Of a DNA stretch of 64,000 nt, positions 54,060-57,981 are shown in pieces. Numbering within the stretch: the first letter of the stretch is position 1; each line of letters begins with the position of its first letter. The translations under genes were made by a program, and so were the position numbers. The notes under the pieces are model-generated. The model did no database searches. It saw only the letters and a list, made by a program, of their open reading frames with translations, and was not told where the DNA came from. Origin of the DNA: Dokdonella koreensis DS-123 (GTDB lineage Bacteria > Pseudomonadota > Gammaproteobacteria > Xanthomonadales > Rhodanobacteraceae); the NCBI RefSeq assembly GCF_001632775.1, contig NZ_CP015249.1, positions 786,686 through 850,685 of the forward strand, in the 5' to 3' direction.

Positions 54060-55148
54060 ATGACCCAGCAGACGATCCTCAACGCAACCCATCGCGCGCT
54101 CGGCGCCAAGATGGTCGACTTCGGCGGCTGGGACATGCCGCTGAACTACGGTTCGCAGATCGAGGAGCACCATGCGGTGCGCGGCGACGCCGGCATGTTC
54201 GACGTCTCGCACATGACGGTGGTGGACCTGCGCGGCGCGCGCGTGCGCGAGTTCCTGCGCCACCTGGTCGCCAACAGCGTCGACAAGCTCAAGGTGTCGG
54301 GCAAGGCGCTCTATACCTGCATGCTCGACGAGCGCGGCGGCGTCATCGACGACCTGATCGTCTACTACCTCGACGAAAGCTGGTTCCGCGTCGTCGTCAA
54401 CGCCGCCACGCGCGACAAGGACCTGGCCTGGATCGGACGGCAGGCGGCCGCCTTCGACGTCGCCGTCACCGAGCGCAAGGACCTGGCGATGATCGCCGTA
54501 CAGGGCCCGAACGCGCGCGAGAAGACGCTCGGGCTGCTGTCGGAGGCGACCCGCGCGAAGGCCGCCAAGATCGGCAAGTTCGTCGCCTGCGAGGGCGACG
54601 ACCTGTTCATCGCCCGCACCGGCTACACCGGCGAGGACGGCTTCGAGATCATCGTGCCGGCGGACCGGGCGGTCGACCTGTGGAACCGGCTGCTCGCCGC
54701 CGGCGTGCGGCCGGCCGGCCTCGGCGCGCGCGACACGCTGCGGCTGGAGGCCGGCATGAACCTGTACGGCCAGGACATGGACGAGAGCGTCTCGCCGTTC
54801 GAGGCCGGGCTGGCCTGGACCGTCGCGCTCGACGAGGGACGCGACTTCATCGGCCGCGGCGCGCTCGAGGCGCAGAAGGCCGCCGGTGTTCCGCGCGTGC
54901 TGATCGGGCTGGTGATGGACGAGAAGGGCGTGCTGCGCCACGGCCAGCGCGTGGCCACCACGGCCGGCGACGGCGAGATCCTTTCGGGCACGTTCTCGCC
55001 GACGCTCGGCAAGGCGATCGCGTTCGCGCGCGTGCCGGCCGGCGCCGGCAGCGAGGGCGTGCAGGTGGACATCCGCGGCCGCCTGGTGCCGGTGCGCGTC
55101 GTCAAGTATCCGTTCGTCCGCGACGGCAAGGCCGCCGAGGGCGTCTGA
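54060..55148 (+). CDS. gcvT: glycine cleavage system T protein (aminomethyltransferase)
   Basis: 362 residues. Moves the methylene of aminomethyl-lipoyl-H protein to tetrahydrofolate. Visible motifs: [20 protein letters not shown] (N-terminal folate region), [14 protein letters not shown], the [15 protein letters not shown] signature, and the C-terminal barrel ending [23 protein letters not shown] 54060 is the family start. gcvH follows after 112 bp that contain a candidate promoter, so gcvH may be transcribed on its own as well. Confidence 0.96.
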
Positions 55149-55220: not shown

Positions 55221-55229
55221 TGGTAGAAT
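55221..55229 (+). promoter_or_regulatory. extended -10 element before gcvH
   Basis: TGGTAGAAT fits the extended -10 pattern TGnTATAAT at 32 bp before the gcvH ATG. No strong -35 is seen, as usual for extended -10 promoters. Confidence 0.45.
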
Positions 55230-55260
55230 GCGCCCGCAGCCCAACCCCAGGATTCGAGCC

Positions 55261-55656
55261 ATGCAAGAGATCCCCGGCGATCTGAAGTTCATGAAGTCCC
55301 ACGAGTGGGCCCGTGTCGAGGACAACGGTACGGTGACGGTCGGCATTTCCGACCATGCCCAGGGCCTGCTCGGCGACCTGGTCTACGTCGAGCTGCCCAG
55401 CGTCGGCGACGAGGTGCAGGCCGGCAATGCCTGCGCGGTGGTCGAGTCGGTCAAGGCGGCTTCGGACGTCTATACGCCGGTGAGCGGCGAGATCGTCGCG
55501 ATCAACGAGTCGCTTGCCGACAAGCCCGAGACGATCAACGAGGACGCCTACGGCGACGGCTGGCTGTTCGTGGTCAAGCTGAGCAGCCGCGACGAGCTGC
55601 AGGAGCTGCTCGATCCCGACGCCTACGCCGAACTGGTCGAGAACGAAGAACATTGA
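55261..55656 (+). CDS. gcvH: glycine cleavage system H protein
   Basis: 131 residues. Lipoyl carrier that shuttles the aminomethyl group between P, T and L proteins. The lipoylation lysine is K65 in [20 protein letters not shown]. The rest ([40 protein letters not shown]) is the standard H-protein beta-sandwich. ATG 55261 is correct; upstream codons belong to the promoter. A strong terminator hairpin lies between it and gcvPA. Confidence 0.97.
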
Positions 55657-55766: not shown

Positions 55767-57131
55767 ATGCCGTTCATTCCCCACTCCGAAGCCGATGTCC
55801 GGTCGATGCTCCAGGCGATTGGTGTCGCCAGCATCGAGGACCTGTTCGACGAGATTCCGGCGTCGCTCAAGATCGCGTCGCTGGAGCGGGTGCCGGACGG
55901 CCTGAGCGAGATGGACGTGGTGCGCCTGATGAAGGAGCGCGCCGCGCAGGACGGCACGCCGCTGTGCTTCGCCGGCGCCGGTGCCTACGAGCATCACATC
56001 CCGGCGGCGGTCTGGCAGATCGTCTCGCGCGGCGAGTTCTACTCGGCCTATACGCCGTACCAGGCCGAGGCCAGCCAGGGCACGCTGCAGCTGATCTACG
56101 AATACCAGACGATGCTGACGCGGCTGACCGGCATGGACGTCAGCAACGCCTCGCTGTACGACGGCGCGACCGCGCTGGCCGAGGCGGCGCTGATGGCCGA
56201 GCGCTGCGCCCGCAAGGGACCGCGCCGGATCCTGGTGCCGCGCACCGTGCACCCGGCGTATCGCAAGACGCTCAGGACGATCGTCGAGCTGCAGGACATC
56301 GAAGTCGTGGAGTTCGACTACAGCCGCGACGGCGCCAGCGCCGGCGGCGTCGATCCGGCCTGGCTGGCCGCCCAGGACTTCGGAGCGTTCACCGCGCTGG
56401 TGATCCCGCAGCCGAACTTCTTCGGCGCGCTCGAGGACGTCGACGCGCTGACCGACTGGGCGCATGCCCGCGGCGCGCTGGTGATCGCGGTGGTCAACCC
56501 GATGTCGCTGGCGGTGCTCAAGCCGCCGCGTGAATGGGGTGCGGACGGTGCCGACATCGTCTGTGGCGACGGCCAGCCGCTGGGCGTGCCGCTGTCGTCG
56601 GGCGGTCCGTATTTCGGGATTCTCGCCTGCCGCCAGGACCTGGTGCGGCAGATGCCGGGCCGCATCGTCGGCCGCACGACCGATCTGGACGGCAAGGAAG
56701 GCTTCGCGCTGACGCTGCAGGCGCGCGAGCAGCACATCCGCCGCGCCAAGGCCACGTCGAACATCTGCACCAACCAGGGCCTGCTGGTCACCGCGGCGAC
56801 GATCTACCTGTCGTTGCTCGGACCGGAAGGTCTGCGCCGCGTCGCCTGCGCGAGCATGAACAACACGCGCGCATTGCGCGACCGGCTGAGTGCGATCGAA
56901 GGCGTCCAGGTGCTGTTCGATCGGCCGGTGTTCCACGAGGTCGCGCTGCGCCTGCCGCGGCCGGTCGCCGGCGTCGTCGATCGCCTCGCGGGCGATCACA
57001 TCGTCGCCGGATTTGCGCTCGACGAGGACTATCCGGAGCTCGGCGAAGCGCTGCTGGTCTGCGCGACCGAGACCAAGAACGAGGCCGACATCGAGCGTTT
57101 CGCCGGGGCGTTGGCCGCCGCGTTGGGGTAA
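55767..57131 (+). CDS. gcvPA: glycine decarboxylase P protein, subunit 1
   Basis: 454 residues, the length of the N-terminal half (GcvPA) of a split P protein. The PLP-binding lysine lies on the partner GcvPB, which is not in the window; the next gene is metJ-like. [99 protein letters not shown] and [20 protein letters not shown] are GcvPA hallmarks. It decarboxylates glycine with transfer to the H protein when paired with GcvPB. Confidence 0.96.
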
Positions 57132-57338: not shown

Positions 57339-57370
57339 AGACGTATAGACGTATGGACGTCCATATGTCC
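57339..57370. promoter_or_regulatory. tandem met boxes (MetJ operator)
   Basis: Four contiguous 8-mers, AGACGTAT, AGACGTAT, GGACGTCC and ATATGTCC (57339-57370), match the met-box consensus AGACGTCT at 7, 7, 6 and 5 of 8 positions. Contiguous 8-bp repeats are how MetJ dimers bind cooperatively. They lie in the 394-bp gap between gcvPA and the metJ-H1 gene, whose start is 156 bp downstream, so autoregulation is likely. The gap (57132-57525) is otherwise AT-richer than average and holds the promoter at 57465. Confidence 0.75.
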
Positions 57371-57464: not shown

Positions 57465-57493
57465 TTGACACGACTGCAAGACAGGAATAATTT
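57465..57493 (+). promoter_or_regulatory. sigma-70 type promoter of the metJ-H1 gene
   Basis: A perfect TTGACA (57465-57470) is followed by TAATTT (57488-57493, 17-bp spacer); AATAAT two bases earlier (57486-57491, 15-bp spacer) is the alternative -10. The ATG at 57526 is about 33 bases downstream. The met-box array lies 95 bp upstream of this -35, so repression at this site would need looping or a second promoter. Confidence 0.55.
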
Positions 57494-57525
57494 CTGCGCC
57501 GGTGACAACGATGATTTAAGGAATC

Positions 57526-57981
57526 ATGGCTGCATCCCGGTTCGTCGACCCCTATGTCCTTCACGGCCTCAAGTCGGGGTCGGTAAAAAAAATCACGGTG
57601 TCGATCCCGCTCCACATTCTTCAGCTTCTGTCCGACGAGCGGACTCGCCGCCAGGTCAAGAACCTGCGCCACGCCACCAACAGCGATCTGCTGTGCGAAG
57701 CATTCCTTCACGCTTTTACTGGGCAAAAACTGCCAACTGACGAGGAGCTAAGACGCGATATGGCAACTGCAAAGAAAGCCGTAAAGAAAGCCGTAAAGAA
57801 ACCCGCCAAGAAGGCCGCTGCGAAGAAGACCGCGGTCAAGAAGGCGGCCAAGAAGACCGTAGCCAAGGCCAAGTCGGCCACCGTGAAGAAGACCGCAGCC
57901 GCCAAGAAGCCGGCCGCGAAGAAGACCGCCAAGAAGACCGCCGTGAAGAAGGCAGCGGTCAAGAAGGCCGCGAAGAAGTAA
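57526..57981 (+). CDS. metJ: MetJ-type methionine repressor fused to a histone H1-like tail
   Basis: 151 residues. Residues 6-77 match MetJ closely: the [11 protein letters not shown] ribbon (DNA-contacting strand), [20 protein letters not shown] and [20 protein letters not shown], which include the ribbon-helix-helix and the SAM-binding helix region. MetJ in E. coli then has about 27 more residues; here they are replaced at Met79 by [20 protein letters not shown] and more KKAAVKK-type repeats, a lysine/alanine-rich tail like bacterial histone H1 homologues (HctA/HC1 type). It should bind met boxes with SAM as corepressor, while the tail could coat DNA. AAGGA lies just before the ATG. An internal start at Met79 (57760) with GAGGAG twelve bases upstream may give a free 73-residue H1-like peptide. 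A tandem met-box array lies upstream. Confidence 0.85.

Follow-up and report, generated by a model that had tools for sequence, protein, structure and literature searches.

We found that a single open reading frame of the window (the window being the whole 64 000-nt stretch of DNA that was analyzed) joins a MetJ repressor in frame to a lysine/alanine-rich, histone H1-like tail. Signals within the joint point to separate production of the tail as well; thus, one gene would probably give two DNA-binding proteins, namely MetJ fused to H1 and the H1-like protein on its own. We put the probability of this reading at about 0.7. Several observations stand behind it: the fusion is family-wide, the joint carries an invariant element, start-site signatures are present at the junction, and free gcv-linked H1-like genes possess a related leader. 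The features concerned are as follows.

54060–55148 and 55228–55656: gcvT and gcvH, ORFs ahead of gcvPA, named from reading the sequence
55767–57131, + strand: gcvPA, an ORF named from reading the sequence, the neighbour used as synteny marker
57339–57370, + strand: four tandem MetJ-box-like octamers, AGACGTAT AGACGTAT GGACGTCC ATATGTCC, ∼95 nt upstream of the promoter
57465–57493, + strand: promoter-like TTGACA-17-TAATTT, seen by eye; a similar stretch is ahead of most free H1-like genes examined
57518–57522, + strand: Shine-Dalgarno-like AAGGA, read from the sequence as serving the metJ start
57526–57981, + strand: metJ-H1 ORF, long product of 151 aa (coordinates, frame and length rechecked)
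57526–57759, + strand: MetJ core, residues 1–78, matched by PF01340, NF003622 and PDB MetJ sequences
57712–57750, + strand: synonymously invariant element GCTTTTACTGGGCAA..CTGCCAACTGAYGAGGAGCTR, resembling the leaders found at free H1-like genes of sister families
57742–57747, + strand: Shine-Dalgarno-like GAGGAG, 12 nt ahead of the junction ATG; a similar motif precedes free H1-like genes
57760–57981, + strand: H1-like Lys/Ala tail, 73 aa (residues 79–151), and the proposed free short product from the junction ATG (evidence at the junction: start codon, AT-ending codons and weak mRNA structure)

The preliminary description of this locus had proposed an in-frame fusion with a nearly canonical MetJ core, and both claims hold. 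The frame is continuous through Met79, where the tail begins. Residues 5–91 matched PF01340 with E = 1.6e-36 (124.6 bits, cut-off 25), NCBIfam model NF003622 ‘MetJ’ scored 129.7 bits (curated cut-off 110), which places the protein among the members of this profile, and two PDB MetJ sequences aligned at residues 4–82 (E = 9e-32 and 3e-31). As the PDB match stops at residue 82, the usual C-terminal segment of MetJ is replaced by the tail, again as proposed. The tail (residues 79–151) consists of 41% K+R and 34% A, with no acidic residue. Its description as H1-like is borne out by this composition but not by profile search, since the HC2 model PF07382 scored the entire protein at 22.8 bits and the isolated tail at 16.2 bits, both below the cut-off of 40; the H1 label is, therefore, a composition-based, putative one.

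We compared 299 genomes of the order, 76 from the family of the window's genome (f1) and 223 others. In 76/76 f1 genomes MetJ was part of a single uninterrupted frame, 137 aa or longer, and the same held for 36/36 family genomes of a separate earlier draw; the fusion is thus kept among homologues throughout the family. A frameshift separating MetJ from the tail, named in the preliminary description as grounds for giving up the fusion, was seen in none of the 76 genomes. The other grounds named there were independent homologous genes with chance readthrough in the present one. Independent H1 genes do exist in sister families; still, chance readthrough does not fit, because the frame is retained in all 76 genomes and the GAGGAG-to-junction spacers of the fused loci, 12 and 9 nt only, are both multiples of three.

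Outside f1, MetJ was present in 20 of the 223 genomes (13 in f9, six in f12 and one in f8). In the loci read (those of f12 without L091) the non-fused proteins were 90–97 residues long in f9 and f8 and 79–82 in f12, and none carried a Lys/Ala (KA) tail. The free MetJ proteins of f9 and f12 (79–97 residues) are also short of much of the C-terminal segment. Those of f12 (79–82 aa; L066, L067, L090, L092 and L093) have neither this segment nor a tail; in L066 and L067, where the upstream region was read, metJ sits 3′ of a GspD-like ORF (identified by eye).

The joint was compared across 61 fused loci. Of these, 59 came from f1 genomes; the other two were L033 and L032, the latter truncated by a contig end. 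L001 and L068, being duplicates, were not included. With L032 also set aside, 59 of 60 tails contained no D or E, and the K+R content was 30–47%. Positions 22, 23 and 25, which we take from E. coli MetJ to be the beta-strand DNA-contact residues, were K/R, K and T in 61/61 loci, T25 and a basic residue at 23 being partly guaranteed by the motif that found these loci. Of the presumed SAM-site residues E39 and R42, both present in the window protein, the former was found in 47 and the latter in 46 of the 61 loci. Substitutions were E39 to Leu in 14/61 and R42 to His, Tyr, Ser or Glu in 15/61 (L060–L065, L098–L102, L104, L105 and L109; L029 for R42 too); the SAM pocket may be altered in part of f1.

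The window's genome has a single MetJ. Its box pairs with at most one mismatch gave 17 matches at seven places (10 matches in the reversed control). The regulon as defined by two-mismatch pairs was rejected: with 71 pairs versus 114 in the reversed control this search was not enriched, so only boxes with at most one mismatch were used. Five of the seven places adjoin metJ or met/cys-like genes: apart from metJ, boxes precede a cysJ-like gene by 5 nt, an aspartokinase/homoserine dehydrogenase-like gene by 27–50 nt, a metX-like gene, itself ahead of an O-succinylhomoserine lyase-like (metB) gene, by ∼230 nt, and a cysB-like regulator gene by ∼140 nt. These names are the best NCBIfam matches; only the aspartokinase exceeds a curated cut-off, and some proteins are truncated where the locus ends. 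For the two other places, close to ORFs that look S8-peptidase-like and kelch-like by eye, no link is apparent. Boxes upstream of metJ beat shuffles (p below 0.05) in 51/61 loci and were undetectable in ten fetched loci, seven of g10 and three of g17. Judged from the boxes, the MetJ of f1 looks functional, and the box-bearing genes suggest that it also controls sulfur assimilation here. The boxes by the cysJ-like and cysB-like genes were recorded in L113 and L120 (own genome, 1817292 and 1787458).

Synonymous sites hardly vary over the ∼45 nt ahead of the junction Met. This element was present in 75/76 f1 genomes and in 0/223 others; in a wider draw from f1 it was found in 224/233 genomes, or 189/192 of those of good quality, which account for three of the nine misses. 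It is not shared by non-fused MetJ genes, and no further copy within three mismatches exists in the window's genome. The excess of synonymous identity was 0.44 over the 15 codons of the block versus 0.11 over 41 codons of the metJ body. Between Ala-Phe-Thr-Gly-Gln and the junction, the near-fixed codons were ACT (61/61), GGG (60/61), CAA (59/61), the second CCA (60/61) and GAG GAG (60/60 and 61/61), and AGA served 58/58 arginines at its place; many of these fixed codons are little used in the metJ body, whose codons vary.

The codon constraint could serve another RNA role. A hairpin masking the Shine-Dalgarno-like motif (GCUUUU with AGGAGC) was predicted in some sequences; as its outer stem is broken in genus g24 and its inner stem in G024/G393, we do not claim it. 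Readings of the element as a hammerhead-like, kink-turn, sigma54 or frameshift feature, considered by eye, were dropped since variants break them. Search for known RNA families gave one sub-threshold match near the locus and, in 12 sister loci, none at gathering score. Five genomes (G342, G317, G382, G420 and G421) carry two copies of the junction element, which may reflect duplication, strain mixture or contig-end overlap.

The junction has several properties of a translation start. Its codon was ATG in 60/61 loci and GTG in one; GAGGAG was located 12 nt ahead of it in 56 loci and 9 nt ahead in four, and was missing in one. The AAA share of Lys codons was 144/367 in tail codons 1–15 versus 132/1853 later, the early share exceeding the late one in 60/61 loci. 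Folding energy of 50-nt segments was weakest at the junction (mean about −5.6, versus −11 to −17 at 42–90 nt upstream), though with an average of −7.6 at 150 nt upstream low folding is not unique to the junction. In L029 all signs fail together: this locus is without the element, GAGGAG and the codon bias, and has GTG at the junction. A like start profile was seen in 23 free H1-like genes (AAA 54/140 early versus 52/1144 later; folding −6.0 at the start). The spacing of 12 nt (56/60) is longer than usual, that of the free genes being 6–12 nt and mostly 7–8 nt. A conserved internal start accompanied by initiation signatures, as observed here, is what one would look for in a nested in-frame start. 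The preliminary description had missed this apparently separate leader, Shine-Dalgarno-like motif and start of the tail inside metJ; the tail is probably also produced as a free H1-like protein.

One could argue that only the long fusion is made, its non-specific DNA-binding arm, comparable to the arms of other DNA-binding proteins, raising affinity or spreading repression, with the element acting as an mRNA control site without initiation. The frame open in 76/76 genomes, the restriction of spacers to 12 and 9 nt, and the occurrence of KA tails on TopA-like long ORFs in some genomes are all consistent with this explanation. We consider it unlikely, however, as the junction unites a start codon, GAGGAG, AT-ending codons and a dip in structure, in a manner resembling free H1-like genes, whereas the four TopA-like tails that were compared had no codon signature. 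TopA-like long ORFs (by eye) ending in Lys/Ala tails were seen in four genomes of the order (L149, L158, L159 and L162).

The free genes came to light in two ways. First, a leader pattern matched 65/76 f1 genomes and 11 others, with 0 matches in the reversed control. Seven of the 11 proved to be free KA genes (G038, G049 and G065 of f4; G040 of f6; G048 and G057 of f3; G187 of f2); the other four (G088, G122, G205 and G224) look like chance matches. Six of the seven come after gcvH or gcvPA; in G038 the 7 kb that were read contained no match to gcv genes. Second, a search blind to the leader found a KA ORF within 1.5 kb after gcvH in 13/13 f2, 1/1 f3 and 2/3 f4 genomes, as well as in 2/3 f1 genomes, where it is the metJ fusion (more distant in G014, the remaining one), and in 0/9 genomes of f5 and f7–f12; G079 gave no gcvH match. 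KA-rich ORFs adjoin gcv genes in the examples from f3, f4 and f6. In f1, gcvH was inside the fetched locus in 41/60 cases and gcvPA in 10/61. A GcvH tree (40 rows) placed f1, f2, f3, f4 and f6 together (97/95), apart from f5 and f7–f12, with the branching within this clade unresolved. No metJ was found in sister families f2, f3, f4 and f6. A second type of free H1-like gene (MATTRKSAAKKS...) occurs in f1 genomes (L134–L136, L138, L140, L142, L146 and L153), with AGGAG 9 nt ahead of the start in 6/8 loci.

Leaders of the 23 free genes were compared with the element. With GAGGAG included, 21/23 were similar at p 0.02 or less; without it, 17/23 at p 0.05, six leaders failing. Among the 16 leaders found by gcvH synteny alone, 14 passed with GAGGAG and 10 without. 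The test with GAGGAG was favoured, since the script picking the leaders required GGAG or GGAA before ATG and seven loci (L204–L210) entered through HC2 or element-pattern matches; also, several leaders are near copies of one another and, therefore, not independent. The distance from TTGACA (sought only 100–360 nt upstream of the start) to the start was 248–354 nt in 20/23 free loci (not in L220, L221 and L224) and 248–299 nt, median 291, in 60/60 f1 loci. Promoter similarity to at least one of three f1 stretches reached p 0.05 (uncorrected) in 16/23 free loci.

The leader encodes a 15-residue peptide that matches MetJ proteins generally, and so most likely derives from metJ. The simplest history would then be an ancestral metJ-H1 overlap or fusion, with metJ decayed elsewhere: in the sister families it would have become an untranslated leader, and the H1 gene would have stayed. 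Beyond the last 45 nt, MetJ remnants are not recognizable in the free leaders; the tblastn relics are weak (E 0.017–0.38, three of nine rows at implausible places), for instance FTGQ*LPT in L209 and PTDEEL in L223, and none was found in L163. In the reversed history the free H1 gene with its leader is the older, and metJ was acquired upstream of it by the f1 ancestor. Of the five clade families four have free H1 genes without metJ, which would agree with this. We regard this order of events as improbable, given the MetJ-like residues of the leader, the weak relics in L209 and L223, and a promoter-to-start distance that is not longer in f1.

Could the free H1-like protein alone matter, with the in-frame link a by-product of overlap between the metJ 3′-end and the H1 leader? 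A related leader is indeed kept where metJ was not found, and MetJ boxes were undetectable in the ten g10 and g17 loci. Yet neither a stop nor a shift of frame interrupts the link in any of the 76 genomes, whereas 9/23 free leaders have in-frame stops and their spacers vary (6, 7, 8, 11 and 12 nt, multiples of three in four genes); moreover, the Arg codon after the element (CGA in 39/61) is one change from TGA, and Arg is nevertheless found in 61/61 loci. We hold this explanation to be very doubtful. An assembly or sequencing artefact, for which no support was found, is ruled out by the agreement of 76 separate genomes.

Returning to a gene with two products, we propose the following mechanism. 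From the promoter at 57465 an mRNA would be made whose translation from 57526 gives the MetJ core with its H1-like tail. This long product would act as a ribbon-helix-helix repressor of the SAM type, directed to MetJ boxes, its tail being a long cationic, probably disordered arm that may bind neighbouring DNA non-specifically. Ribosomes would also start at the in-frame ATG at 57760, by means of GAGGAG and the leader inside the metJ 3′-end, to yield a free 73-aa H1-like protein, a putative nucleoid component; the upstream MetJ boxes would make the output dependent on SAM. Production of both proteins, DNA binding by the tail and control by SAM are what we infer. The fuller scenario, in which the metJ 3′ coding end holds a complete H1-like translation start, one mRNA gives repressor and free tail, SAM status is coupled to nucleoid coating, and metJ of sister families decayed to a ∼250–350-nt untranslated leader still driving H1, appears moderately probable to us.

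If true, SAM levels would be linked to nucleoid structure, and the system would offer a test of how tails change the reach of a repressor. The locus may also record how a coding gene becomes the untranslated leader of another gene, with stages seen in living families. The family f1 is probably Rhodanobacteraceae, given a Rhodanobacter contig among the fused matches and a reported Rhodanobacter MetJ. Finally, if the order is Xanthomonadales, as we presume, MetJ is present where the accessible part of published regulon work lists none in four Xanthomonadales genomes (PMC4239095) and metJ is given as missing in X. campestris 8004 (PMC6230763, accessible part). In Rhodanobacter proteomics, a MetJ protein became more abundant with nitrate and four methionine enzymes less so; the portion of that article available to us does not mention histone (PMC12146267). 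Among the matches listed for literature on MetJ, Xanthomonadales, H1-like or nucleoid proteins, the available texts contain no description of a MetJ-H1 fusion.

In comparison with known systems, the protein shares with MetJ (PF01340, NF003622) the core residues and the tandem box sites near met-like genes; it differs in that the KA tail replaces the C-terminal segment and that cysJ-like and cysB-like genes are among the box-bearing ones. Genes with in-frame internal starts make a long and a short product from nested starts; here, unlike in those, the proposed short product would be of nucleoid type and nested in the gene of a metabolic repressor. Bacterial H1-like proteins (HC2, PF07382; AlgP), as portrayed in the accessible part of PMC9239181, are likewise Lys/Ala-rich, nearly without acidic residues and probably disordered, whereas the present tail stays below the HC2 cut-off and is joined to a specific repressor. 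The tails of AlgP and PhaF, in contrast, are attached to other domains. Four ‘Histone H1’ genes are tabulated for Xanthomonas campestris, two of them of 83–86 aa, in the available portion of PMC8578834; these are annotated as free H1 proteins, and it is by annotation and size that we liken them to the free H1-like protein proposed here.
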